Source: Clostridia bacterium (lineage in GTDB: Bacteria; Bacillota; Clostridia; Oscillospirales; Acutalibacteraceae). From it: 51,047 nucleotides of DNA. A program made the translations under genes and the position numbers. The stretch spans positions 1 through 51,047 of the forward strand of contig JAFSDL010000031.1 in the NCBI GenBank assembly GCA_017436285.1, written 5' to 3'. The notes under the pieces are model-generated. The model worked only from the letters and a program-made list of their open reading frames with translations. It was not told the origin of the DNA and made no database searches. This document shows, piece after piece, positions 4,866 to 51,047 of the stretch (the stretch's first letter is position 1; each line of letters opens with the position of its first letter).

Positions 4866-6449
4866 TCATTTAACTCTTCCATAATGTGTCGGATTAAGAA
4901 TTCTGCCAACTCTGGGTACAAGAAAATCAATCCACCAATGAAACCATTTGCCTATTAAAATACATTTCAGCTTTTCTCCGACCTTTTTTGCTTTTTCTTC
5001 CGTTCCGGGAACATAGCTGGGGTACATTTTAATTCTCTTACCCTTGAACACGAATTTTAAAACTCTTTCTGCCACAGTTCCCAAAGGTCTGATATGAATT
5101 ACAAGCGTATTTTCATTTTCCCAATAGCCAAAGCAACAGGCATCAAATTTCAGTTCACCTAAAATGATTTCTCCTACACTTTTCTTTCCGTTCATTGAAA
5201 TAAAAAGTGTATTTTTAAATCCGCCATCTTCGGTCCACGAGAAAACACAACCACCATCCTTAAATTCAAATGAAAGGTTTGTCATATTGCCTACTCTGTC
5301 CTTCGCAAAAAAGACAACAGGCATTGGCAAAACGCTTATAGGAAAGCCAATAAAATTTATAAAATGACATTTTCGTAAAGAATAGGTATTCCCGTTAATT
5401 GCTTTTTCAATATTCTGTCTTTGTTCAACAACAACCTTTTTATCTTTACCAAGACTTACTTCAACACCTGTTTTCACGAAATCAGGTTCAATAAAAGCAT
5501 CGGGCATATATTTCCAGATAACATCAAGAGCTTCCTGCAAATCGCTGTGCTCCGATGTCATAACAAGGCAAGCATTATAAGACTCGAAAGAAATAGCATA
5601 TTGGCAGAACATCCCTTCTGCTCTGTAAGTATCAGGCATACCCGCACAACGCCAGAAGCCACAACCATAGCCCGCACTTGCATCAGGTGCTTTTTCGCTT
5701 ACGGAATTATCGCTTATATTACTTGTTGCCTCTTTTGTCCACCACTCAGGTATTACCTGAACGCCGTTAAATCTGCCTTTATTCTGATAACACAGAATAA
5801 GCTTTGCAATATCTTCGGTTTTAAGCTTCAATCCCCAGCCGCCTGCCTCAACACCATCGGGAGAATGCTCCCAGAAAGGAGCATCAATTCCCAGAGGTTC
5901 AAACAAACGTGGTGTAAGATATTCGGTTATTGACACGCCCAGAACCTTGCAAAGCATTTTCGATGCTACATAGTAGTTATCATTTACATAACGCCAGCTT
6001 GTTCCCGGTTCGAAAATCCATTTTGCATTAACAAAAAGTTTTAACCAATCGTCACTTTTGCTACCACGAATAGAAGTCTGTTTCCCTGCAGTCATACACA
6101 AAAGTTGATGAATTGTAAGTTTTTCTAAATATGCATCCTTCTCTTTTCTTATTTCAGGAAACACATCAACAAGCCTTGTTTCTCTTTTTATTTTCCCCTC
6201 ATTCAATGCAAAGCCATAGGCAGTAGCAAGAAAACTTTTGCTTATGGAATACACCATATGAGTAGTTTCGGGTGTTAAGGGCTTTCTCCACGATTCACAA
6301 GCAACCTTATTATCTCTCAAAATCATTAAACTATGAATATTTATGCCTCTATATGACATTTCCTCGGTCATCCTTGCGATAACCGAGGAGTCTATACCTA
6401 CTGATTCGGGAGTTTTAGCTCTTTCTATTGAATTATTCAAAATCTTCAT
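4866..6449 (-). CDS. Beta-lactamase-family serine hydrolase (class C/esterase-like)
   Basis: This is a cytoplasmic-looking serine hydrolase of the penicillin-binding-protein/class C beta-lactamase fold. The active-site S-x-x-K is SISK (Ser68, Lys71), and the second motif is YVN (Tyr154, Asn156) in the PGTSWRYVNDNYY segment. Residues beyond about 360 form an extra C-terminal beta-rich domain, as in many 500-residue esterase/peptidase members. There is no signal peptide. The start codon overlaps the end of the radical SAM gene by 17 nt, with AAAGGA just upstream, so expression is coupled to that enzyme. The substrate cannot be deduced; a resistance role is unlikely. Confidence 0.8.
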   Translation of the reverse strand: MKILNNSIERAKTPESVGIDSSVIARMTEEMSYRGINIHSLMILRDNKVACESWRKPLTPETTHMVYSISKSFLATAYGFALNEGKIKRETRLVDVFPEIRKEKDAYLEKLTIHQLLCMTAGKQTSIRGSKSDDWLKLFVNAKWIFEPGTSWRYVNDNYYVASKMLCKVLGVSITEYLTPRLFEPLGIDAPFWEHSPDGVEAGGWGLKLKTEDIAKLILCYQNKGRFNGVQVIPEWWTKEATSNISDNSVSEKAPDASAGYGCGFWRCAGMPDTYRAEGMFCQYAISFESYNACLVMTSEHSDLQEALDVIWKYMPDAFIEPDFVKTGVEVSLGKDKKVVVEQRQNIEKAINGNTYSLRKCHFINFIGFPISVLPMPVVFFAKDRVGNMTNLSFEFKDGGCVFSWTEDGGFKNTLFISMNGKKSVGEIILGELKFDACCFGYWENENTLVIHIRPLGTVAERVLKFVFKGKRIKMYPSYVPGTEEKAKKVGEKLKCILIGKWFHWWIDFLVPRVGRILNPTHYGRVK

Positions 6450-7860
6450 AGTCCTTTATATGCTCGGATTCATAGTCCTTGTAGATATCAACACTACGAA
6501 TATGCCATTGAACAAATCCGTGCTCTTCTGCCATTTTATCTGCAGTTTCTTTCCATTTGCGTGCAACATCAATTGTTTTACCAATTAAATCTTCAACTTT
6601 CTCAGGTGACTGAAGGTCAGTGGATTTAGCGCCTGATTCTTCAACAATCTTTTTGATTGCACCGGGGTTATCTACAATAGGACAAGCACGAAGCATATTA
6701 TCTGAGAATGGCTGACGAGCTTTATATGCCATAAATATCGGACTCTTAAGAGCATCAATGAAATGGGTGTCAGGATCCTTGATATTAACATTTGAATAGT
6801 GAGCAAATACACAAGGCTCACAGTCACCATTTGCGCTGATGTGGAAATACTGCTTACCACCGGCAACACAACCACCAACATATTCGCCATCGTTAAAGAA
6901 ATCAATCATAACAAGAGGTTTAACTTCTTTAAAACGCCATTTACGAACCTGGTCATACATATGTTTTCTCTGCTCTGCTGTTGCCATAAGTTCAGCTGTA
7001 GCACCACAACCTACAGGCACAAAAGAGAACAACCATGCAAAAACTGCACCCTGGTCAATAAGGAAATCCACATATTCATCAGTAGAAATAACATCTGCAT
7101 TGTACTTTGTATAACACAAGGATGTACCAAAAGGAATACCATTTGCTTTCAAACGTGCCATAGCCTCGATAGTTGCTTTGTATGTACCTTTACCTCTGCG
7201 GGAATCTGTTGTTTCTTCATTACCTTCAATAGAAATTGTAACAAGTAAGTTGCCAACCTCTTTAATTTGATTAACAAATGCATCATCGCAAAGAGTACCA
7301 TTTGTGAATGCATGGAAAAGACAATCGGGATTTTCTTTACAAAGTCTTATGATATCGTTTTTACGAACGAGAGGTTCGCCACCTGTGTAAAGATATACAT
7401 AAGTACCAACAGCTTTACCTTCCTGAATAATTTTATTCAAATCATCATAGCTCATATTAAGCTTATCGCCATATTCTGCCGCCCAACAACCTTTACACTT
7501 AAGGTTACAAGCAGTAGTAATATCAATAAGCACTGCCCAGGGAATATTACACTTATGTTCATCCATAGCAGCTTTTCTTATATCATAACTTTTCACAACT
7601 GCGTTTACAAATGGCGGAACGAGTTTAAGAATAATATTTGTATCTGTGTTCATAATAACTCTTTTTATATAGTCAGCATAAACATTAGTGGGATCGCTTA
7701 ATCTTTCTTCTAATTTTGTGAGAATTTTGAGATGAAGCTCCTCCTTAACCATTTTCTTACCCCAGGAGATGAGCTTAAAAAGATTAGCGTCATAATCTTT
7801 TTTTACATAGTCAATTCCTTGTTTTATTGCAACGTTTAACGCAGTTTCCTTCAAACCCAT
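6433..7860 (-). CDS. Radical SAM/SPASM-type enzyme
   Basis: The protein carries the radical SAM cluster motif CNLKCKGC (Cys118, Cys122, Cys125), followed by YTGGEPL (about 159-164), the SAM-binding GGE. A second cysteine-rich segment, GGCVAGGKQYFHISANGDCE, then PCVF and a later RACPIVDN, resembles a SPASM or twitch region holding an auxiliary Fe-S cluster. The first 100 residues are a helical extension. Family members modify peptides or small molecules; no precursor peptide was found nearby. AGGATG precedes the ATG. It is sandwiched between an anchored protein and a serine hydrolase in one apparent operon. The product is unknown. Confidence 0.85.
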   Translation of the reverse strand: MGLKETALNVAIKQGIDYVKKDYDANLFKLISWGKKMVKEELHLKILTKLEERLSDPTNVYADYIKRVIMNTDTNIILKLVPPFVNAVVKSYDIRKAAMDEHKCNIPWAVLIDITTACNLKCKGCWAAEYGDKLNMSYDDLNKIIQEGKAVGTYVYLYTGGEPLVRKNDIIRLCKENPDCLFHAFTNGTLCDDAFVNQIKEVGNLLVTISIEGNEETTDSRRGKGTYKATIEAMARLKANGIPFGTSLCYTKYNADVISTDEYVDFLIDQGAVFAWLFSFVPVGCGATAELMATAEQRKHMYDQVRKWRFKEVKPLVMIDFFNDGEYVGGCVAGGKQYFHISANGDCEPCVFAHYSNVNIKDPDTHFIDALKSPIFMAYKARQPFSDNMLRACPIVDNPGAIKKIVEESGAKSTDLQSPEKVEDLIGKTIDVARKWKETADKMAEEHGFVQWHIRSVDIYKDYESEHIKDYEDFE

Positions 7861-7879
7861 ATCGAAAACATCCTTTCAA

Positions 7880-8725
7880 TTAATAATTCAATCTCCACTC
7901 TTCTGTTTGCTCACCCTCAAAGGTGGCAGAACCGCTTATAGAGCCCTTGTGGGCAGAGCCCTCGATATGAAGCGGTATTTTATAATTTGCCGAGGTTACA
8001 AAACCATCTGCATTTATTTTGAGTTCAATGCTTGAACCTTTATAAACAATATCTGCGGAATCGACCTCCATAAAGCTTATATCAAAGCCTGCAACATCAA
8101 GATAACCTACCGCAGAAGCATTGTGCTTGGGAACATCATACATTCCGACGCTTTCCTCAACAAGAGTAAGCTTTATCACATATTCGTTACCTGAACGCTG
8201 AACAGTGGCAGATTTAACACCGCTTTCATCTAACGTAAAGCCATTTCGTTTAGGAAGTATTATAGGAACGGTTTCACCCTCTGAATTAACCGCCTTACCG
8301 TTTTGATAAACAAGAGTTTCCTCAACAGGCTTCACAACCCAACCAAGCATTAAATCAACAACGCTTCGAACAATTCCGCCCGCGCTACATTCTGTAACCT
8401 TGGCAGTAAAGCTTTCTGTGTGATTTACTGTTAAATTCCCTTGAAACGCCTTGGTTTTATTAACGGCATCCTTAGCCTTGGAAATTATCTGTGCTCTGCT
8501 CCACCCTGACGGGTCAGGGAGAACTATATTATTCTGAACACTTGTTTTATTTTCTTCAACTACTTTTGCAGATGTTTCTTGGGGCAAATCATTTTCTATC
8601 TTAACATCTTCTTCAAGCTCCTCTGAAAGCTCTTGCCCTTCTGTTGGTGCAAATGTTAATCCAGGTTTATATATTATTGTGGTATTAATATTATCGGTAT
8701 TTTTCTTATCATTTTCGTTAATCAA
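7880..8725 (-). CDS. Membrane-anchored protein of unknown function, 5' end uncertain
   Basis: From the TTG at 8723-8725 this gives 281 residues: an acidic linker (about 1-60), then an extracytoplasmic-looking, beta-rich domain with no family I recognise. The frame stays open upstream to 8830 and encodes a clear transmembrane segment (KYVLFISAITILIVSILIGV), but that part has no ATG, GTG or TTG start. A GTG at 8832-8834 in another frame encodes a basic start (VKRYKEK) that would join the segment if the A5 run at 8814-8818 had one more base. So the real protein is probably about 315 residues and anchored, with either a frameshift or a sequence error. It lies 19 nt upstream of the radical SAM gene. 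Confidence 0.55.
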   Translation of the reverse strand: MINENDKKNTDNINTTIIYKPGLTFAPTEGQELSEELEEDVKIENDLPQETSAKVVEENKTSVQNNIVLPDPSGWSRAQIISKAKDAVNKTKAFQGNLTVNHTESFTAKVTECSAGGIVRSVVDLMLGWVVKPVEETLVYQNGKAVNSEGETVPIILPKRNGFTLDESGVKSATVQRSGNEYVIKLTLVEESVGMYDVPKHNASAVGYLDVAGFDISFMEVDSADIVYKGSSIELKINADGFVTSANYKIPLHIEGSAHKGSISGSATFEGEQTEEWRLNY

Positions 8726-42488: not shown

Positions 42489-45023
42489 TTAATTTTCAAC
42501 ATAATCCGATGGCTCAATTCCGTAATGATAATAAACCTCGTACCTTATATTCTCTTCAAGACTTATCATAGTTTCTTCGTCGTCATACTCAACATCCTCT
42601 AAAATATAGTCTTCAATATTTTCTTCTTTAGGAAGAACACGATAACTTTTCATCGTGTATTTCAATTCATCCTTTGTACTGAACACTATTTCTACGGGTG
42701 CTACCCCTGAACCAACTGACACTACCTTACCGTTTTCAAGGTTATATTCTTCATATAAAGTAACTGCATAAACAGTAAGTGTATCTTTCTCATCATCTTT
42801 TATTCTGTGCAAAATCTCGTGAGATTCAAAGGCTTTAGCAGAGGGGTTCTTAGCTTTATTTATGGTGTTTATAAAATAATTTCCGTTATTTTCTCTTAAA
42901 ACAACTTCACCAACAGCCTCTTCTAAAGCATACACTTTTCTCAGGAACTCCGTTGGCTCTACTCCTTGCACGCCCCAATACGGAATATTCTCATCACCAT
43001 CCTTGAGAACTATATTGCCGTTTTCGATTTCAATATCAAGGAACTTTTTCTTAAGCTCACCAGACACCCCATTTTCATAATCATAGTAAGTACACTTTAT
43101 CTTTACTTCACCATTTTTAGTCTTGTAAAATTCAGCAGACTGACCGGGATAATTAAAGGTATTTATATATTCAGGTTCTTCCTCGCCAACCTCTACTGCT
43201 GTAAAAACAATTGTGAAAAGGCCTGATGTCGGACCGTAAGTAAGAGCACAATTTTCATCTTTTCCATCATTATCAATATCAAATGTTGAAGAATCCATTA
43301 TCAATCTGAATTCTGTTGGCTCTGATAACGGAAGTGTGGACCAAAACAAATTCTTTACGAACTCACAATAAGTATCGTCAATTTCATAAAAGTAGCTTGA
43401 AAGAGGATTTATTATTGGTTGAACAGTTACATTTTCTTTATTAATATCATGTGTTGAGAGAATTGCTCTCATTTCCGAAATAGTTGCACCACCGACGTAA
43501 GCAAAGCTGTTATCAGAAACAGCCTCCTGAGCAGTATTCACCAAATAGCATTTATAATCATCCTCAGCCATTTGCCATATATAAATAGTTAAACCACCAT
43601 CTGTTGATACATCAAAGAATTGGGGATATATATTTTCCAGCTTTTCCATTGAACCATAATCAGCTTCAGAATCAAAATATTCTTTTGCAGCGTTTTCACA
43701 AAACTCAAGCTGTTCTCCGATATATCTTTGAGAATCAAGAGCTTGCTCCTGCAGATGCAACGGAAATTTTCCTTTTATATCATCAACATAAAGTGAACCA
43801 TCATGGGGTTCCCAATATTCAAGTAATCTATAATGCCCGTGCGACCCTGTTCTTTCAGCAGTAATTACTGTAGGAATATACGTTCCTGTTTCTAATTTTA
43901 TATCACCATTTTCGCAACTATATTCGTGATATAAAACCCACATATAAACAGTAGTTTTATTGACAGATTTTTCAACACCCAATACCTTATGGTGTACTGC
44001 GATAAAGTTATTATCGGTATAGCCTTCGCTATAATGATGGTCTGCTATCTGGGTATCAAGGAACACAGACAACTCATCGTCTAACGAGGTTTGGAAATTT
44101 GTTAAGAAACAAACTGCAACCACTATACTTATAATTATCGCAACAATAATAAGCCAAAACGCCGGTTTCTTATAATTCAATACAGATTTAACCCTGTTCT
44201 TCACGCCAACCTCACCAAACGCAACAGGACAAGCAGCAATCATTCGTCTGTTCACACTGCAAGTTAAAAGAGCTTGAGAATAATCTGCTTTTTGTTCATT
44301 ATTAAATTCCTTTACAACCTTTTCATCACAGGCAAGCTCAATATCACGACAGAGAAGAATATAACCAAGCCAAACCATAGGATTAAACCAATGGATTGTA
44401 AGAATTAAGAACCCGAGAGGCTTCCATAAATGGTCTTTTCTGCGAAGATGTGCTTTTTCGTGAGCAATAACATGCTCCATATCCTGCTCGTTCATATTAA
44501 ACGGTAAATAAATTTTGGGCTTAATTATACCGAGAACAAAAGGTGATAGCACGGCTTCACTCTGATAAATGTTATCACAAAGCAGAACTGCCGTTCCGAT
44601 TTTCCTCTTCAATCTTATAAAGCTTATAGCTGTATAAATTAAAAGAGCTACAATTCCTACAACCCATATAACAGCCAATATTGTTGTTATATCCACAAAA
44701 TTTCCTGCAGGTCTTGTAACGCCCTCAAAGTAGTTGCCTTTGAGATAATTGTTAACCCGATTGTCTATTATCGTAACACCTGATTCAATCTGAGGTCTTG
44801 GAGAATCAACAGGCTTACTTATAGTTTCGGCACTCGGTATAAGGCTGAAAACACTTTCAAAAGAAAAAGGCATAATAAGGCGTAATCCTGCAATTCCCCA
44901 AAGAACGCAATTCACCCATTTAGGTGCTTTTTTCAATATAATTCTTAACAGCACAATAGCAAGAACAATCCAACAAGCAGAAATGCTCATATTGACTATT
45001 TTTAAGAATATATCAGCCATCAT
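42489..45023 (-). CDS. BlaR1/MecR1-type M56 membrane metallopeptidase with unusual sensor region
   Basis: This 844-residue signal-transducing protease presumably cleaves the BlaI-type repressor next to it. There are transmembrane helices near 12-31, 40-60, 113-137 and 205-225. The M56 zinc motif HEKAH (His188-His192) and the downstream Glu in RDIELACDE (about 229) are present. A last membrane helix near 290-310 leads to a 530-residue external part. This part is not a penicillin-binding domain; it holds two similar copies (about 325-455 and 735-840; YHEYSCENG.. and YEEYNLENG..) around a middle domain. The start overlaps the repressor stop by one base. Confidence 0.88.
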   Translation of the reverse strand: MMADIFLKIVNMSISACWIVLAIVLLRIILKKAPKWVNCVLWGIAGLRLIMPFSFESVFSLIPSAETISKPVDSPRPQIESGVTIIDNRVNNYLKGNYFEGVTRPAGNFVDITTILAVIWVVGIVALLIYTAISFIRLKRKIGTAVLLCDNIYQSEAVLSPFVLGIIKPKIYLPFNMNEQDMEHVIAHEKAHLRRKDHLWKPLGFLILTIHWFNPMVWLGYILLCRDIELACDEKVVKEFNNEQKADYSQALLTCSVNRRMIAACPVAFGEVGVKNRVKSVLNYKKPAFWLIIVAIIISIVVAVCFLTNFQTSLDDELSVFLDTQIADHHYSEGYTDNNFIAVHHKVLGVEKSVNKTTVYMWVLYHEYSCENGDIKLETGTYIPTVITAERTGSHGHYRLLEYWEPHDGSLYVDDIKGKFPLHLQEQALDSQRYIGEQLEFCENAAKEYFDSEADYGSMEKLENIYPQFFDVSTDGGLTIYIWQMAEDDYKCYLVNTAQEAVSDNSFAYVGGATISEMRAILSTHDINKENVTVQPIINPLSSYFYEIDDTYCEFVKNLFWSTLPLSEPTEFRLIMDSSTFDIDNDGKDENCALTYGPTSGLFTIVFTAVEVGEEEPEYINTFNYPGQSAEFYKTKNGEVKIKCTYYDYENGVSGELKKKFLDIEIENGNIVLKDGDENIPYWGVQGVEPTEFLRKVYALEEAVGEVVLRENNGNYFINTINKAKNPSAKAFESHEILHRIKDDEKDTLTVYAVTLYEEYNLENGKVVSVGSGVAPVEIVFSTKDELKYTMKSYRVLPKEENIEDYILEDVEYDDEETMISLEENIRYEVYYHYGIEPSDYVEN

Positions 45024-45397
45024 TATTCTCCTTGCCTGAATCTGTCAATCATCCTTTGAACTTCATCAATTTCCTTTTCTGAGATTTTTTGATGCTTGGT
45101 AAATGCAGCAATGAATGCAGGAAGAGAGCCTTCAAAGGTTTTTTCAACCATTTCATTGATTTCCGAAGCCTGAACCTCATCCTTTGAAACTAAAGAAGAA
45201 ACAATTGTGTTTTCATTTTTCAAAACACCTCTTTCAGACAAGCGCTTGATAACGGTGTATGTAGTGGTAGGCTTCCAGCCCAACTGCTCTTTACAAATAT
45301 TAACAAGTTCGCTGCTTTTGATAGGTTCGTGCTCCCACAAAATCAAACAAAAACGATATTCACTTTCAAAAACTTTTGGTATTTCCAGTATAACCAC
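45023..45397 (-). CDS. BlaI/MecI/CopY-family transcriptional repressor
   Basis: This winged-helix repressor has FESEYRFCLILWE, ELVNICKEQLGWKPTTTYTVIKRL (recognition helix region; in pieces) and a C-terminal dimerisation helix pair. In this family signal-induced cleavage by the M56 partner relieves repression. Two identical-type palindromes lie in its promoter. The start is uncertain. The GTG at 45397 overlaps the ribosome site AAGGAG, whereas a CTG at 45386-45388 has ideal 8-nt spacing and begins where family members usually begin (LEIPKVFESE). The stop overlaps the BlaR1-like start (TAATG). Confidence 0.9.
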   Translation of the reverse strand: MVILEIPKVFESEYRFCLILWEHEPIKSSELVNICKEQLGWKPTTTYTVIKRLSERGVLKNENTIVSSLVSKDEVQASEINEMVEKTFEGSLPAFIAAFTKHQKISEKEIDEVQRMIDRFRQGE

Positions 45398-45402
45398 TCC
45401 TT

Positions 45403-45420
45403 AACTCTAACATATTAGAG
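45403..45420. promoter_or_regulatory. Repressor operator 1
   Basis: ACTCTAA-CATA-TTAGAGT is a perfect 7-bp palindrome just upstream of the repressor ribosome site. It has the same arms as operator 2, with centres about 32 bp (three helical turns) apart. Confidence 0.8.
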
Positions 45421-45431
45421 TTTATCTTCAA

Positions 45432-45463
45432 CCCAACTCTAACACATTAGAGTTGGATTGTCA
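45432..45463 (-). promoter_or_regulatory. Repressor promoter with operator 2
   Basis: CCAACTCTAA-CACA-TTAGAGTTGG (45432-45455, 10-bp arms) covers the spacer and -10 of a promoter: TTGACA (45458-45463), 17 nt, TAGAGT (45435-45440). Binding would block the promoter, giving autorepression. Confidence 0.8.
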
Positions 45464-45477
45464 ATATATTTTCAAAA

Positions 45478-45512
45478 CAAAAATAAGCAATGCGCATTTT
45501 TAACACATTGCT
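45478..45512 (-). terminator. Terminator of the adenylate-kinase-like gene
   Basis: AGCAATG (45486-45492) pairs with CATTGCT (45506-45512), followed on the minus strand by TATTTTTGTTTT. Confidence 0.65.
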
Positions 45513-45534
45513 CTGTTTTATTTATATTCAATTT

Positions 45535-46032
45535 TTAACTCAAACAAATATCACTTATATATTTATCTGCTTCTTCTCTTGATCTGAAAATTATAATTTC
45601 CTTCTCTTCCTTATATTTCTCAATCAACTCATATATTTTCGAGAGAGTTGTTTGAGGAAATTCTTTTATGAAGAGTTCAAACTCAGGGTCTAATTCTGTT
45701 TCAAGCCAGGGCAAATCATAGCGTCCCTTACCTATCCGCTCCGTTGCACCCTGTATGCAGATTTCAGTGGGCAAATCAAAAAGAAAAACAGAGTCACACT
45801 CTCTAATACGCATTTCAATTGTTCTACTGTAATTCCCGTCAATTATCCATTCAGTTGTTTCAAATATTTCCTTTATTCTCTCATCAAATTCATCTCTGGG
45901 AATATGAGTTTTATCGGGCTTATGCCAGATAGCATCGAGATAATATAAAGGAAGCCCCGTGCATTTTTGCAGTTTCTCTGCAAAGGTTGTTTTACCGCTA
46001 CCGGGACAACCTATAACAATAATCTTTTTCAT
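45535..46032 (-). CDS. Adenylate-kinase-like P-loop protein (FlaR/topology-modulation type)
   Basis: The 165-residue P-loop NTPase has Walker A GCPGSGKTT (residues 8-16), LYYLDAIWHKP, WIIDGNYSRT and SVFLFDLPTEICIQGATER. These are all features of the small kinases annotated as DNA topology modulation protein FlaR or adenylate kinase. Such enzymes probably phosphorylate nucleosides or small molecules; the topology name is historical. It follows the hypothetical gene upstream after 24 nt. Confidence 0.82.
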   Translation of the reverse strand: MKKIIVIGCPGSGKTTFAEKLQKCTGLPLYYLDAIWHKPDKTHIPRDEFDERIKEIFETTEWIIDGNYSRTIEMRIRECDSVFLFDLPTEICIQGATERIGKGRYDLPWLETELDPEFELFIKEFPQTTLSKIYELIEKYKEEKEIIIFRSREEADKYISDICLS

Positions 46033-46056
46033 TTTTTATCAATCTTTTCTTTCAAT

Positions 46057-46455
46057 TCACAGACCAAGAATATAAATACCGTTATAAGCTTTTGCTTTAA
46101 TAAGCCATTCCAAAACAATCGTATAATCTTCAGGCTTTTTCTCTTCCAGAGCTATTATCATTTCCTCAACCTGCTCAGGCGAATAATAATTAATACCGCA
46201 CCAATCAATTTCTCCGCATTTTAAATTGTTATATGTACCATTCCTGAATACATCCTTATACTCTTTATAGAAAATCTCCCAATCAGAGCCATGCATATAT
46301 AATGAGCTGTTTCTCCAGTTATCAATTCTATCTATGGAAACAATGCTCCTGATATCTGTCCCTCTTTTAAGCTGGCAGAATTGCAATTCTAAAAAATCAG
46401 AACCGCCAAAAGCTCTGCGTTCATCCTGATTATTGAAAATATGAAACAGCATCAT
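46057..46455 (-). CDS. Hypothetical cytoplasmic protein (132 aa)
   Basis: I do not recognise a family. The protein is soluble, rich in aromatic and acidic residues, and starts MMLFHIFNNQDERRAFGG. It contains WRNSSLYMHGSDWEIFYKEY and a late GIDWCGINYYS-like stretch (EIDWCGINYYSPEQVEEMI). The ATG at 46455 has AAGGGTG upstream, and a TTGCAA-17-TAAAAT promoter lies between it and a more distal ATG at 46524, which excludes the longer form. It may be co-transcribed with the kinase downstream. Confidence 0.65.
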   Translation of the reverse strand: MMLFHIFNNQDERRAFGGSDFLELQFCQLKRGTDIRSIVSIDRIDNWRNSSLYMHGSDWEIFYKEYKDVFRNGTYNNLKCGEIDWCGINYYSPEQVEEMIIALEEKKPEDYTIVLEWLIKAKAYNGIYILGL

Positions 46456-46483
46456 ATCACACCCTTTAAAATACGCTAACATA

Positions 46484-46512
46484 ATTTTACCATTGATGCA
46501 GAAGAATTGCAA
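46484..46512 (-). promoter_or_regulatory. Promoter of the 132-aa gene
   Basis: The minus strand has TTGCAA (46507-46512), a 17-nt spacer and TAAAAT (46484-46489). Confidence 0.55.
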
Positions 46513-46520
46513 CTCATCTT

Positions 46521-46550
46521 TCACACATTTTCACCTGTGTCCATATAATG
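46521..46550 (+). promoter_or_regulatory. Possible sigma-E promoter of the cotJ operon
   Basis: CATATAAT (46543-46550) resembles a sigma-E -10 (CATACANT), with an A/T-rich -35 region about 15 nt upstream. cotJ in Bacillus is sigma-E dependent. A vegetative reading of the same -10 is possible. Confidence 0.4.
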
Positions 46551-46595
46551 TACCAAGCGCAAATATGCGCTATTCACCTAAAAAGGAGAATTATA

Positions 46596-46829
46596 ATGGA
46601 CAAATACAACAACATTTATATGGTTGAAACGGCAATGCGAAAGCAAAATGCGGATTGCCCCTGCAACTGTGTAACAACAGTTCTTCCCAATGATACTGTT
46701 GTTGCTATGGCATATGTACCGTTTCAGCTTGACAAAACAACCTATTCTGCGGAGATGGCGCTGTGCGAAGGCACACTCTTCCCCGTGCTTAACAAACCAT
46801 TTTGCGGAAGAAGTGTTATGAATGGCTGA
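46596..46829 (+). CDS. cotJA: Spore coat-associated protein CotJA
   Basis: This is a small coat component made in the mother cell. The 77-residue protein has a Cys-rich head (NADCPCNC) and the family core DTVVAMAYVPFQ, then YSAEMALCEGTLFPVLNKPFCG. The ATG at 46596 has GGAG 7 nt upstream; a longer frame from 46548 is rejected. It overlaps cotJB by 8 nt. First gene of the interrupted cotJ operon. Confidence 0.9.
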   Translation: MDKYNNIYMVETAMRKQNADCPCNCVTTVLPNDTVVAMAYVPFQLDKTTYSAEMALCEGTLFPVLNKPFCGRSVMNG

Positions 46830-47073
46830 AAGAAATAAGCTTCTCCGCAAGCTTCAGGCTGCAAAGTTCGCTGCCTGGGAATTGCATTTATATCTTGACA
46901 CGCACCCTTGTGACAAGGCTGCAAACGAAATGTTCAGAAAATACACAAACGAAGCCAAAATGCTCAAAAAAGAATTTGAAGACAGGTTCGGACCTCTTAC
47001 CGTGACAAGCTCAAATGAAGCCGACTGGCTCTGTGACCCATGGCCATGGGAAAATCAAGGGAGTTGTGACTGA
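46822..47073 (+). CDS. cotJB: Spore coat protein CotJB
   Basis: CotJB assists assembly of the CotJ proteins into the coat. The 83-residue protein shows the family pattern: KLQAAKFAAWELHLYLDTHP, then AANEMFRKY, FGPLTVTSSN and the C-terminal CDPWPWE. It overlaps cotJA and ends 2 nt before the cotJC start, the standard gene order. It appears intact. Confidence 0.92.
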   Translation: MAERNKLLRKLQAAKFAAWELHLYLDTHPCDKAANEMFRKYTNEAKMLKKEFEDRFGPLTVTSSNEADWLCDPWPWENQGSCD

Positions 47074-47075
47074 TT

Positions 47076-47183
47076 ATGTTTATGTATGAAAAGAAATTAC
47101 AGTATCCTGTAAACATTAAAAACCCGAACCCCAAACTCGCACAAATCATAATTACTCAGTATGGCGGTCTATATGGTGAATAG
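47076..47183 (+). pseudogene. cotJC: cotJC, 5' fragment interrupted by a prophage
   Basis: CotJC is a manganese-catalase-like spore coat protein of about 190 residues. Here only the first ~31 codons remain. The reading starts MFMYEKKLQYPVNIKNPNPK and reaches the family's QYGG, where normal CotJC continues P-D-G-E-L. Instead five further codons (LYGE, stop TAG at 47181) follow and then prophage DNA. The rest of the gene is not in the window. If the prophage excises precisely, cotJC would be restored, so it may be an interrupted rather than a dead gene. Confidence 0.88.
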
Positions 47184-47185
47184 AT
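47157..47185. other. Prophage attachment-site junction in cotJC
   Basis: Homology to cotJC stops just after the codons for QYGG (47157-47168), so the crossover core should lie in or next to CAGTATGGCGGT. The core length cannot be set without the other junction. Confidence 0.6.
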
Positions 47186-47215
47186 ATAATATCGAATAAT
47201 TGAACAAAAAGGAAA

Positions 47216-47251
47216 CTCCCCGCCGATTTTATTCGGTGGAGAGTGGTTTTT
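47216..47251 (+). terminator. Terminator just inside the prophage
   Basis: CTCCCCGCCGA (47216-47226) pairs with TCGGTGGAGAG (47233-47243, one mismatch), followed by TGGTTTTT. It would stop transcription arriving from the cotJ operon. Confidence 0.65.
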
Positions 47252-47380
47252 CAGCAAGATACCAGCAAATGAGATAACAATCATTTTTTGCGATTTATGA
47301 GCGTTAGAGCTGTAAAAACCGCTGTTTTCTGCGTTTTATAAACATAAATGTTGATAAGCAGCAAGTTACCAGCAAGTTAA
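47252..47380. repeat. Four 11-bp CAGCAAGWTAC repeats in two tandem pairs
   Basis: The copies are at 47252-47262 (CAGCAAGATAC), 47263-47273 (CAGCAAATGAG, degenerate), 47359-47369 (CAGCAAGTTAC) and 47370-47380 (CAGCAAGTTAA). The two pairs are 107 bp apart, all in one orientation. Position, length and spacing fit arm-type integrase binding sites beside an att core. Confidence 0.65.
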
Positions 47381-47387
47381 AATAAAA

Positions 47388-47424
47388 AATCCCCATCAGG
47401 AAAAATAATTCTTGATGGGGTTTT
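47388..47424 (-). terminator. Terminator of the prophage late operon
   Basis: The minus strand forms CCCCATCA / TGATGGGG around a 14-nt loop, followed by ATTTTTTATTTT, directly after the amidase stop codon. Confidence 0.85.
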
Positions 47425-47427
47425 GTG

Positions 47428-48273
47428 TTACTTTTTAATTGTTTTAGCTTTTGCGAGGCAGCCTTTGCCGAAGGTGTTGAGTCTTGCGAGTTTGGTTTTT
47501 GTGAGTTTGGTTTTCTTCCTGAAATCTGCAACTGCTTTAGCAGTTAACGGACCGTAGTCGCCGTCAACGTCAAGGTTATAATTGCCGAACCAATTAAGGA
47601 ATTCCTGAAGGAGCTTAACCTGGGTTCCGGTATCACCCTGCTTCAGATAGTAGCGAGTCTTTTTGACTTTCTTGCCCTTCTTATTGGTTTTATAATATGT
47701 CACCTTAACAGATGGGAAGGTCCCCTGATATTTTTTCTTTTCAGGGAGAGCCACACCGTAATAGTCACAGATACCTTTCGCAATTGCTTCCCCAATTGCT
47801 TTAGTGTTCTTTCTAATAAAATCAGAACCCTCTTTTGTATCGTGGAATTCCGCCTCAACATAAACCGTTAAGCCGTCCGCAGAATTGATTTCATAGAAAT
47901 CGGGCTTTTCAACAAGTCTTTCTGCGCTCTTGCCGGGAGTGATAGGTGCAAGGCGGTTGAATACTGCCTCGCCCACTTTCTTATGTTCACCGGTTAATTT
48001 ATAGAGAAGAATCTGAGTTCCGCCGGTAACATTGTGCTTCGCAGTTGCGTTTGTGTGAATTGCTACATGCAAATCTGCGCCGAAAGCGTTACTCTCTCTT
48101 ACTCTTGCATACATATCATCGTTATAGGTGCATTCGGTATCGAAACCTGCCTTAACGAGATATGCAGCACAGTATTTTGCTATCTTATGGCAGACCGCTT
48201 TTTCGTTGGTGCCGCCTGTTGCATAAGCATTATGAACCTGGTTGCTCGGAGAAAGATATATTCTCTTGGCCAT
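47428..48273 (-). CDS. Phage endolysin: N-acetylmuramoyl-L-alanine amidase with peptidoglycan-binding domain
   Basis: The lysin cuts the amide bond between MurNAc and the stem peptide. Residues 4-175 are an Amidase_3 zinc domain: LSPSNQVHNAY with the first zinc His, NEKAVCHKIA with the zinc Glu, HVAIHTNA with the third ligand, and VYVEAEFHDTKEG with the catalytic Glu. A lysine-rich linker leads to a peptidoglycan-binding helical domain (LKQGDTGTQVKLLQEFLNWF, DGDYGPLTAKAVADF). There is no signal peptide, so release depends on the holin. TAATG coupling joins it to the holin gene. Confidence 0.92.
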   Translation of the reverse strand: MAKRIYLSPSNQVHNAYATGGTNEKAVCHKIAKYCAAYLVKAGFDTECTYNDDMYARVRESNAFGADLHVAIHTNATAKHNVTGGTQILLYKLTGEHKKVGEAVFNRLAPITPGKSAERLVEKPDFYEINSADGLTVYVEAEFHDTKEGSDFIRKNTKAIGEAIAKGICDYYGVALPEKKKYQGTFPSVKVTYYKTNKKGKKVKKTRYYLKQGDTGTQVKLLQEFLNWFGNYNLDVDGDYGPLTAKAVADFRKKTKLTKTKLARLNTFGKGCLAKAKTIKK

Positions 48274-48656
48274 TATTCGTCACTCCTTTCTGAATCATCT
48301 GTTACATTATCATTTTCGGAGACAGGGTGAGCTTCAATGGGGTAGTTTTCTTTTTCTATAGTGTGGGAGTCAATTTTTGAGGTTGTTGATTCCTGGGGAA
48401 TACGAACATCGTAGCTTGTCCCGTAAGTAAGAGCACGTTCACTGTCGCTCATACCTGCAGTTGTAGGGTCAACAAGCACGCCGAAGAATGCAAGAATGTT
48501 GATACCCATTGCCACAATTTCAAGTACTTCATTCTCTGTGATGGGCGGTACCACACCGAACATTCCTAAAAGCTGATAGACAAAAGAAATAATCAATGCA
48601 AATGCAGCTAACAGGAACACCTTGTTTTTAAGTCTTTCTTTAATGTTGATTTTCAT
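48273..48656 (-). CDS. phiLC3-type phage holin
   Basis: This small membrane protein forms lesions for endolysin release. The 127 residues start KINIKERLKNKVFLLAAFAL, with two hydrophobic helices (about 13-35 and 43-62). The diagnostic VDPTTAGMSDSERALTYG segment of phiLC3-like holins follows, then a longer than usual acidic tail (about 45 residues). It shares one base with the amidase start and overlaps the upstream gene by 17 nt. Confidence 0.9.
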   Translation of the reverse strand: MKINIKERLKNKVFLLAAFALIISFVYQLLGMFGVVPPITENEVLEIVAMGINILAFFGVLVDPTTAGMSDSERALTYGTSYDVRIPQESTTSKIDSHTIEKENYPIEAHPVSENDNVTDDSERSDE

Positions 48657-48951
48657 TTTTAAAATCCTCCTTTGGTAAAAAATTTAATAATTCTTCCACT
48701 TTATGCTTCACTTCACCATTTCCGCCGTATTTTATGTATTTTTCACCTGCAGCAATACGCTCGGAAAGTGGCATTTCGTGAGACATAATAGTAAGCCTTT
48801 TGATAGATAGGTAATTGTCAAGAGCGTGTTCGCTCTGCTCCTCAACCCACTTTTCCCACTTACGAATAAACTTGTACACCCTCATAGCAGTTGTGACTAT
48901 TACACCGAGAGCCGTAAGAACCGATGCAATCAAGAGTATATCGTTAGCCAT
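48640..48951 (-). CDS. Small phage membrane protein (103 aa)
   Basis: One N-terminal transmembrane helix (LLIASVLTALGVIVTTAM) is followed by a charged, helical cytoplasmic part (FIRKWEKWVEEQSEHALDN). Its position before the holin suggests a second holin-like or antiholin function, but I do not recognise the family. The ATG at 48951 has AAGGTG upstream; a GTG three codons earlier is rejected. It overlaps the preceding gene by 8 nt. Confidence 0.7.
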   Translation of the reverse strand: MANDILLIASVLTALGVIVTTAMRVYKFIRKWEKWVEEQSEHALDNYLSIKRLTIMSHEMPLSERIAAGEKYIKYGGNGEVKHKVEELLNFLPKEDFKNENQH

Positions 48952-49171
48952 CGGATTCACCTTCTTTCAACCCCTGCTTAATACTCTCAACAAAATCAAA
49001 ATACTCTTTGAATTCTTCAGGCTTTGTATCTCTCTGCCTTAAGATAGCAAGCTCATCATCAACAGAATATTTGGTTCGTATCGCCTGAATGATTTTGTCT
49101 TTATAGGTAGGTTCTTTTGCTTTTTCAAGAAGTGCCTTTGTTTTCGGCATAAATTTAAGTAAATTTTCCAT
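48944..49171 (-). CDS. Small phage protein of unknown function (75 aa)
   Basis: This short, charged, helical protein starts MENLLKFMPKTKALLEKA and ends with an acidic FVESIKQGLKEGESDG. The ATG at 49171 follows AGGTGG and lies just after the stop of the large tail-region gene. Such small genes often lie between tail and lysis modules. No domain was recognised. Confidence 0.65.
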   Translation of the reverse strand: MENLLKFMPKTKALLEKAKEPTYKDKIIQAIRTKYSVDDELAILRQRDTKPEEFKEYFDFVESIKQGLKEGESDG

Positions 49172-49172
49172 A

Positions 49173-51047
49173 TTATTCACCACCTAAATAATGAGCATCA
49201 ACATTTTCAATTTCGGGTTTGTTTTGGTAATACAATACAACATCTTTGACATAACCATTTTCCACAACTGCGTTATATTCTTCAAAGAAAGCACTTGCAA
49301 GTTCTTCGCTTTCGGTGTATAAGCACAGCTCACATATAAAGTGGCTCTCTCTTGTTTCGCCTTGATAAGCACCGCTTTTAGTTTCAAAATTGCCCTTGGA
49401 AAAACTACCGTTGTCCACCACAGTTTTAGCGGTATTGGTAAAACTCATAGTTGAACCGTCAGCAAGAACACAAACCGCATCCACTATGGATTTAGGGTCT
49501 GTTAATCCCGCCAAATTGTTGCTACTGTCAAATGCCGGTTTGAATGGTGAGGTAGCCAAACACCTAACGGGATTATCGCCTGCTTGTTCAAACGCACACA
49601 AATCAACAATGCAACTGACCCAATAGTAACCACCTGTAATAGTACCCCTTGACATTTTAAGGTCAACTATTTTTGCATTGTCACTTGTTGTTTTACCCTC
49701 AAACTCTGCAAGGTTGTAAGTGTATGATTTTATATAGTCGATTTCTTTTTCTTTGAACTCTGCAAGAGCTTCTTCGGTTACATATTCCTGTTTTTTGTAC
49801 TCTGACTCAACAACAGGTGATGTGGCACAGGAATATTTACCCCAAGATTCTGTCAAGGTGCTATCTGTGTTTATATCAGATACAATTGCTGCACGAATGT
49901 CAACAATTCTGCTTGTATCAAGGGCTAAATCAGGATAGCAATTGCCCTTTGCGATAACCATTGCACCCTCACTATCATCGTTGCCGAAGCTGCCGCCATA
50001 GCCTTTTACACTCACATAAGCATACTCAACATCATGTGCAATACTGCCATCAGAATTTTTGAATACCGCTTTACCCTCGCTATCAAAGGTAAGCTGAACA
50101 GTATCGTGATTGTAGAAGCGGAAAAATTCAGACACATTGCCATCGCTTATTTCGTATGTGCCATCTTCGGTTACAAATTCAGAAATATCGGCATAGTTAT
50201 CATTTTTAAAGCATTCGGGGTATTCTGATTTCTCAATAACCTCAACTATGCCTGAGGGCTTTCTGAGGGTAAAGCCTGTTACTCCATTGTGAAGAGTAAC
50301 GCCAATTCCGGAGCCCCTGAATTCTTTGCTTTCCCCGACAACGTCCCAAGAGCCGTACACCGCCTTATTGCCTCGCCAAGCCCTTACATTACCATTGGGA
50401 ATAGTAATATTTTCAAGGTTAAGAAGTGGTGCGAGTTTTTCATAACCGCTTGTATCTTTATTTACCACCGAATACACATAATTATCAAGATAGCTTGTTC
50501 GCACCTTTGAGGACGCGTATGTGGTCTTGTCTTCAGGGCAAGTATGAGTAGTTTTTGCAACACAGGGGTCAACAGCTTCATAAAGTGAATAGCCATCACC
50601 ATAGATTTCATCAACGAATACACAATGGCTCAAGCCCTTATTAACAAGAAGCTCACCACTATTCATATCAACAGTTTCCTCTAATGTGAAGTTACTGTCG
50701 AAGGTATAACCCCTATTACTCTGCGGATACGGATTACCACAAATAAGATTTGCAAAGGCACTGCACACAAGACCATAGCCTGTGCCGCCCGTTGCAGAAA
50801 TTTCAGTATGACCGCTAACGACATCTGCCCTTTTACCCTCTGCAACAAAGCCACCATCATAGGCAACTGAATAAGGGTCATTCAAGGCATTAAGAGCAGT
50901 TTCAGCAGATACCTCGAAGCCCACATAATGAGAGTTTACCCACCTGCTTGAATAGGGTACACCGTAAAATCTTCTGCCCGATTCCATAAGACGAGTAGAA
51001 TCATTCCAGCAGATTTCTTTTCGGGCTTTAAATAAGAAATCCTTGAT
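49173..51047 (-). CDS. Phage tail-region protein with possible cysteine-peptidase domain, 5' end outside the window
   Basis: At least 624 residues are present. The frame stays open for 20 codons past the ATG at 50987 up to the window edge, so the N-terminus is missing and that ATG is internal. Around residues 90-170 (from the edge), GTGYGLVCSAFANLI, then LSHCVFVDEIYG and YEAVDP, resemble an NlpC/P60- or CHAP-like Cys-His arrangement. The middle and C-terminal parts are beta-rich without recognised domains, as in tail fibres. It may be a tail-associated wall-degrading or host-binding protein. No homologue was identified with certainty. Confidence 0.65.
   Translation of the reverse strand: MKDFLFKARKEICWNDSTRLMESGRRFYGVPYSSRWVNSHYVGFEVSAETALNALNDPYSVAYDGGFVAEGKRADVVSGHTEISATGGTGYGLVCSAFANLICGNPYPQSNRGYTFDSNFTLEETVDMNSGELLVNKGLSHCVFVDEIYGDGYSLYEAVDPCVAKTTHTCPEDKTTYASSKVRTSYLDNYVYSVVNKDTSGYEKLAPLLNLENITIPNGNVRAWRGNKAVYGSWDVVGESKEFRGSGIGVTLHNGVTGFTLRKPSGIVEVIEKSEYPECFKNDNYADISEFVTEDGTYEISDGNVSEFFRFYNHDTVQLTFDSEGKAVFKNSDGSIAHDVEYAYVSVKGYGGSFGNDDSEGAMVIAKGNCYPDLALDTSRIVDIRAAIVSDINTDSTLTESWGKYSCATSPVVESEYKKQEYVTEEALAEFKEKEIDYIKSYTYNLAEFEGKTTSDNAKIVDLKMSRGTITGGYYWVSCIVDLCAFEQAGDNPVRCLATSPFKPAFDSSNNLAGLTDPKSIVDAVCVLADGSTMSFTNTAKTVVDNGSFSKGNFETKSGAYQGETRESHFICELCLYTESEELASAFFEEYNAVVENGYVKDVVLYYQNKPEIENVDAHYLGGE

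Follow-up and report, generated by a model that had tools for sequence, protein, structure and literature searches.

cotJC, a spore-coat catalase gene split by serine-recombinase elements and probably stitched together before use in spore formation

The interrupted cotJC of the window and its congeners

The window analysed here, a stretch of 51,047 nucleotides, is the entire contig C26 of the 63-contig, 2.05-Mb, 84%-complete genome assembly of a Clostridia bacterium. Near its right end cotJA and cotJB are followed by cotJC, the gene of a coat manganese (Mn) catalase, which is broken after 31 codons at the left end of a prophage. We consider it likely that cotJC is interrupted here by a prophage from a large group of elements that carry a large serine recombinase (LSR) and use cotJC as their attachment gene, and that the element is excised in the mother cell and the gene rejoined. 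Such elements, each with its own recombinase, divide cotJC into two, three or four pieces in many spore formers of the gut and rumen, and a gene split in this way must probably be stitched together before it is used in spore formation. The locus carries the following features.

46596..46829, plus strand: cotJA, intact (PF11007, E 5e-17)
46822..47073, plus strand: cotJB, intact (PF12652, E 2.3e-26)
47076..47183, plus strand: cotJC 5' piece, codons 1-31, then 4 element-derived codons and a stop (PF05067 positions 1-35; translation)
47157..47168, plus strand: attachment core, host side, CAG TAT GGC GGT (Q28-G31), from the break position as in the congener G003 and other S1 junctions
47168..47190, plus strand: half of a phage attachment site (attP), element side, TCTATATGGTGAATAGATATAAT (score 14.39)
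47184..51047, no strand assigned: left part of the prophage, truncated where the contig ends
47428..48273, minus strand: endolysin, Amidase_3 and PG_binding_1 (Pfam)
48273..48656, minus strand: phage holin, Phage_holin_1 (PF04531, phrog_962, phrog_297)
48640..48960, minus strand: small phage open reading frame (ORF), 106 amino acids (aa), no PHROG match at E 0.01
48944..49183, minus strand: small phage ORF, 79 aa, no PHROG match at E 0.01
49173..51047, minus strand: large phage ORF, at least 604 aa, running off the contig, no Pfam or PHROG match

A sequence-only reading of this stretch had described intact cotJA and cotJB, a cotJC that ends after the conserved QYGG with a new stop, and a lysis cassette in opposite orientation, and the profile searches agree with it throughout. 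The first two genes matched PF11007 and PF12652, and Pfam and PHROG placed the endolysin and the holin on the minus strand. The cotJC ORF at 47076-47183 translates as MFMYEKKLQYPVNIKNPNPKLAQIIITQYGGLYGE and then stops; QYGG is followed by the four codons LYGE and a stop ending at 47183, at the point where intact congeners continue with QYGGPDGELGASLRYL. A search of 45000-51047 against Rfam gave no match.

By analogy with free attP sites, where GG or CC stands at the centre of 34 of 40 significant dyads, the crossover dinucleotide of the window would be the GG of codon 31 (47166-47167). The 23 bases to the right of this GG (47168-47190) were scored with a model built from free phage attP sites. 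None of 5000 shuffles scored equally high, and the score was reached at 3 of 102,048 window positions (both strands, the half-site itself included). Because the junction scores as an attP half-site, the element is very probably a prophage with a recombinase of the S1 type described below, its integrase lying past the contig end. The half-site and the identical break point in other genomes together make a chance break or a chimera unlikely.

In the window's own assembly a Mn_catalase search returned the cotJC 5' piece as its sole match, and the 3' half was therefore unseen. With the recombinase of G003 as query, the same assembly yielded one LSR (30% identity, on contig C49); it scored like a generic LSR and was rejected as the recombinase of the window element. 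Viral contigs held no match to the exact 35 bases of the window junction, and the window endolysin, used as a query, found no relative. A Mn_catalase match was present in 17 of the 22 genomes searched from the window's genus, and several of these congeners hold an intact cotJC.

The sequence-only reading had predicted, at the far end of the element, the rest of cotJC from GELxASLRYL onward beside an integrase. This arrangement was found in G003; the window's own genome yielded no 3' half. The cotJC 5' piece of G003 ends at the same QYGG, with a lysin-like ORF (judged by eye) next to it on the opposite strand. On another contig of G003 a 485-aa LSR with Resolvase, Recombinase and Zn-ribbon domains (PF00239, PF07508 and PF13408) is followed 84 bp on by a cotJC 3' piece (YGGPDGELGASLRYL...), and this contig also encodes a terminase and a portal protein. 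In G014 lysis-like ORFs (by eye) stand immediately ahead of the 3' piece, and G012 has a middle piece of cotJC with a serine recombinase past it. Absence of a 3' fragment, which would have spoken against a switch, is thus not what the relatives display.

Insertion sites, recombinase families and free attachment sites

Twenty-nine junctions were compared base by base in register (16 at site S1, 10 at S2 and 3 at S3). S1 corresponds to codons 28-32, S2 to codons 62-65 and S3 to codons 135-136. A fourth site, S4, follows HYQRFG at about codon 174 (about 174-175) and has fewer cases: G012, L272, L162, the near-identical L184/L185 and Ruminococcus flavefaciens SAb67, with a recombinase beside it in three of them (G012, L272 and SAb67). 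Automatic joining restored the conserved protein in 26 of the 29 junctions; it failed in G242 (register shift) and at G126 S2 and G119 S3 (misplaced core). G126 was open once joined at fixed codons, and G242 and G119 S3 were judged by eye. The longest automatic run of common core was 3-19 bp at each junction, and 3/29 picks were misplaced. All 13 split genes joined at fixed codons were open from start to stop (198-247 codons), including G126 from four pieces. Six genomes assembled into a single contig, with splits at S1 or S2, carried both pieces on it.

A profile search aligned CotJC with the Mn catalase of L. plantarum (1jku), whose ligands we take to be Glu35, Glu66, His69, Glu148 and His181. 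Their equivalents in CotJC would be about E35, E65, H68, E136 and H169. On this alignment and these ligand positions, each of S1-S4 lies within about five codons of a Mn ligand, and all four sites adjoin codons for Mn-ligand motifs.

S1, S2 and S3 each have their own LSR family. When genome contigs were searched with 16 S1 recombinases and the best 80 loci kept, a cotJC piece adjoined the recombinase in 76 (75 within 200 bp, one at 1.7 kb). The search patterns hold no cotJC sequence, but the query LSRs came from cotJC junctions and at least three of the 80 loci (G003, G145 and G242) are rows of the query alignment. At L176, one of the four exceptions, the contig edge reads as a cotJC 5' piece and was not counted. 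For S2, 26 matches to the S2 alignment among genomes of the bacterial family exceeded 500 bits, 25 were made into loci, and 18 of the 25 held a cotJC piece; for S3 all 13 loci above 600 bits did. These loci span about 1.5 kb on each side, and six S2 and four S3 loci are alignment rows. Among lower-scoring LSR loci a cotJC piece was adjacent in 1/5 and 0/17 (1/22 together). At S4 the recombinases of G012 and L272 share 36% identity, and both are matched by the SAb67 enzyme. In G266 (C1:915073 onward; also L331 and L082:9574-11622) the S2 recombinase frame stays open into the cotJC 3' piece and is 727 aa long in total.

The orientation of S1 elements was random on the LSR tree (77 rows, 42 vs 35; 24 changes vs 25.6 when shuffled), and 164 of 500 shuffles gave as few changes. 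Models that need a fixed orientation are therefore disfavoured. Two pairs of near-identical S1 recombinases, L182 vs L188 and L177 vs L180, lie in opposite orientation in cotJC.

Two or three sites were used in 17 of the 75 split genomes classified below. Four cotJC pieces of G126 (at 86646, 90757, 111517 and 134320) lie on one contig and the same strand over 48 kb, with a recombinase in each gap and a middle piece of 32 codons that has no start. In SAb67 cotJC is likewise in four pieces on one contig, over 88 kb; three of them were the only Mn_catalase matches, the fourth being too short for the profile.

53353-53445: SAb67 cotJC piece
53472-54947: SAb67 recombinase ORF, S1 type
86753-86872: SAb67 cotJC piece
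86904-88508: SAb67 recombinase ORF, weakly like any family tested (55 bits)
122297-122641: SAb67 cotJC piece
139733-141268: SAb67 recombinase ORF, S4 type
141275-141364: SAb67 cotJC piece

The excised form was sought in viral contigs, where again the best 80 recombinase loci were kept. A cotJC piece was present in 22, and 45 of the other 58 had enough sequence past the recombinase. In 40 of these 45 flanks there was a significant dyad (reached by at most 2 of 100 shuffles), that is, a free attP, with CC at its centre in 19 and GG in 15. In relatives of the window genome the S1 recombinase family uses a dyad attP of about 46-48 bp with a central GG or CC, which it joins to the GGNGGN of codons 30-31. 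One viral contig, L268, carries both flanks of such an event: its bases 5961-7466 match one S1 junction of SAb67 at 98.3% identity over 1.5 kb, and 7460-8124 match the other at 96.1% over 0.67 kb, the two matches overlapping by 7 bp. By these identities L268 is a free form of an element closely related to the S1 element integrated in SAb67. It shows precise excision (or packaged circular or permuted phage DNA), but not its timing.

Frequency of split cotJC and selection on its pieces

Profile searches gave a Mn_catalase match in at least 229 of 300 sampled genomes of the family. Eighty-two genomes (30 + 52), picked for a weak best Mn_catalase match, were re-searched for pieces; the matches of the other 147 positive genomes were not read one by one. 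The cotJC tally excludes rows of other catalase-like proteins, and five rows starting at most 3 bases from a contig start were dropped from the piece tally. cotJC-like rows were present in 79 of the 82 (G131, G187 and G235 had none), and cotJC was split in 75 of these 79. By profile coordinates with wide limits, rather than by 75 read junctions, the split genomes fell into S1 only (24), S2 only (25), S1 and S2 (13), S3 only (9), S2 and S3 (2) and all three (2). At least two pieces were visible in 59 of the 75. Eight more genomes, each with a full-length Mn catalase, had an S2 or S3 recombinase next to a piece of cotJC, which brings split cotJC to at least 83 of the 300 genomes (75 + 8). The sequence-only reading did not foresee several sites, several elements per gene, or this scale.

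Intact cotJC with empty sites was found in G190, G072, G046, G314 and G306, species of genera that also hold split genes. G232 was rejected as an empty-site congener of G139, having another type of Mn catalase at the fetched place, and L231 as an intact cotJC, its sequence being a 3' piece. The intervening elements range from 2.3 kb to prophage size. Two cotJC pieces of G253 (C2:257787-356897) lie 98 kb apart on one contig, a distance far above that of a usual prophage, perhaps an integrative and conjugative element or nested elements.

Ratios of nonsynonymous to synonymous substitution (dN/dS) over joined split genes were 0.037 (G139/G297), 0.014 (G075/G193) and 0.019 (G126/G225). Two intact pairs gave 0.029 and 0.044, and a third was saturated and not computable. 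These ratios show purifying selection on the split pieces. G139 and G297 share a 2.3-kb S1 element with a recombinase (72% identical), an Amidase_6 gene and an ORF of 73 aa, and both have kept the two halves of cotJC. Since the element is common to both, cotJC was probably split before the two diverged and was kept nonetheless; it is mainly on this retention that we base the view that the joined product is used. The ORF lists of these elements show no phage structural gene. The Amidase_6 gene (L066:3204-3686, minus strand; 79% identical) is their sole sizeable gene besides the recombinase, and the 73-aa ORF, at 51% identity between the congeners, has a weak third-position excess (27, 27, 42). 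At the position of cotJA both genomes have ORFs of long tandem peptide repeats (SPATTGNSANAQNRMNSAV-like), of 263 aa (L065:4445-5233, minus strand) and 419 aa (L066:4126-5382, minus strand).

Proposed excision in the mother cell, rival explanations and known elements

SpoIVA was found in 29 of 30 genomes, the window's included (27 of the 30 are split), being absent from G014, which is 80% complete, and in 4/4 genomes reached through named loci. By this gene marker the hosts would be spore formers. Upstream of cotJB, sigma-K-like promoters were present at 25 of 95 loci against a shuffled mean of 1.8, some of the loci coming from one genome. In C. difficile the LSR of the skin element is constitutive and the recombination directionality factor (RDF) is specific to the mother cell (PMC5025042). 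As skin is regulated through its RDF and not through its LSR, the missing piece here is probably a directionality factor.

In the mechanism that we favour, the element would be excised in the sporulating mother cell, probably once an RDF is made there, as for C. difficile skin. Excision would rejoin cotJC and allow the coat Mn catalase to be made, while the spore would retain the interrupted copy. The phage would have a refuge in a gene with conserved active-site codons that are hard for the host to alter, and would lose nothing by excision because mother-cell DNA is discarded. Where cotJC is split several times, every element would have to leave before a functional enzyme became possible. On balance we lean towards a broader proposal, in which cotJC is a shared docking gene for several converged lineages of phage recombinases that recognise the codons of the four Mn-ligand motifs. 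The host would make production of the enzyme depend on as many as three independent elements leaving in concert, in a cell with a doomed genome, and such assembly of a gene from four pieces would be conserved as a system across numerous genera of Oscillospiraceae from gut and rumen and of related bacteria. The switch proposed by the sequence-only reading is supported, for the window genome through its junction and its relatives; its link to sporulation we infer.

Several results weigh against excision in the mother cell as we propose it. The window genome assembly has neither a cotJC 3' half nor an S1-type LSR. Regions upstream of the LSRs were not enriched in sigma-E or sigma-K promoters (0-2/158); a loose -10 pattern was slightly raised there (36 vs 22.4 shuffled, the largest shuffle giving 32). 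No RDF was identified, the 73-aa ORF of the 2.3-kb elements being a weak candidate that we do not claim. Synonymous divergence (dS) exceeds 1 in two of the three split pairs. A full-length Mn catalase also occurs in at least 10 of the 83 split genomes (2 of the 75, plus the 8), a share that is an underestimate because weak best matches were sampled first, so that split genomes with a second full-length catalase are under-sampled. On the possibility of a second complete cotJC, which the sequence-only reading had named as damaging to its case, the outcome is mixed under this biased sampling, 73/83 split genomes having no full-length Mn catalase among the matches listed. Transcription of the LSR by read-through from the cotJ promoter was also considered, the genes of the 2.3-kb elements being co-directional except for the 73-aa ORF, and the random polarity of S1 elements speaks against it as a general rule.

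Part of this evidence would also fit a gene that is merely a passive target. Temperate phages would then use the conserved codons of cotJC as bacterial attachment sites (attB), and the gene would be off in lysogens, without developmental regulation, until freed by occasional induction. LSRs without sporulation-type promoters, S1 polarity that is random on the LSR tree, the existence of free phage relatives and the other full-length Mn catalases in at least 10/83 split genomes are all compatible with this, but the pieces are under purifying selection while split, two or three elements coexist in one gene whose pieces remain open, and two congeners retain 2.3-kb elements that revealed no phage structural gene, with conservation of the LSR and of both cotJC halves. 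We therefore regard a passive target as improbable. Decay of pseudogenes cut by mobile elements would account for 3' pieces without their own start in the joined frame, and for internal stops in a few tabulated rows; it is contradicted by dN/dS of 0.014-0.037 in the three pairs measured and by the full length of all 13 joined genes, and we give it very little credence.

It is harder still to credit that the pieces serve as separate polypeptides or are rejoined at the level of RNA or protein. The 727-aa LSR frame that enters the cotJC 3' piece in G266 was all that was seen in its favour, whereas the anatomy of the attachment sites, the site-bound LSRs and the free attP are typical of DNA recombination, element polarity is unconstrained, and a startless middle piece of 32 codons, as in G126, makes little sense as a protein. 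Nor do we find an assembly chimera at all plausible, a possibility that had been raised for about position 47170. The contig does end 3.9 kb beyond the break, and the assembly lacks the 3' half, but the same break recurs in other genomes, the six single-contig genomes have both pieces on one contig, and the window junction carries an attP half-site.

Several known systems come close to the cotJC elements. The skin element in sigK of B. subtilis and C. difficile is likewise prophage-like, encodes an LSR and lies inside a mother-cell sporulation gene that is restored by joining (PMC5025042). The target differs, being a coat enzyme in place of a sigma factor. cotJC is also entered at several sites by different recombinase families, can contain as many as three elements, and is split in at least 83 of the 300 species sampled from one family. 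Interruption of spore-surface or late sporulation genes is shared with SPbeta in spsM, vfbin in spoVFB, vrin in spoVR, gin in gerE and yin in yabG (PMC4191935, PMC5595907, PMC10747680). None of these is in cotJC, and as far as these sources go they are described as one element per gene, without such recurrence; the word cotJ is absent from the three main texts. Cyanobacterial heterocyst elements in nifD and other genes, from about 1 kb up, also interrupt genes of a differentiated cell, several per gene, with four in nifD of Rivularia (PMC4874684). They differ in phylum and cell type, and the cotJC elements include temperate phages with free attP in viral contigs. The phi027 prophage of C. difficile adjoins the CotJC homologue CDR20291_1465, named cotG in PMC12122855 (PMC11222575, PMC12122855). 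Here too a temperate phage attachment site lies beside a cotJC-like gene, but it is adjacent to and not within the coding sequence, and its attP has a different sequence.

The main text of a systematic recombinase survey (PMC10083194) does not contain the word catalase. The sequence-only reading knew of no characterised example in cotJC, and our searches of the open PubMed Central (PMC) literature likewise brought up none, subscription papers and preprints lying outside their scope. The cotJC elements extend skin-like gene-intervening elements to a new target gene. In the sources consulted, phage control of sporulation by reversible interruption is documented in Bacillus, Geobacillus and Clostridium relatives as cases of one gene with one element each; in cotJC several recombinase families act on a single coat gene, and at more than one site. 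A comparison of small relics with active phages and intact alleles can directly test whether the elements are parasites, partners or both. The cotJC junctions also make available LSR families with predictable attB sites. Annotation may label a split cotJC as broken or missing, and an attP reveals the target gene of a free phage.

Elsewhere in the window a large ORF on the minus strand (42489-45397) stands beside a small regulator ORF, and the two resemble a BlaR1/BlaI-type pair.

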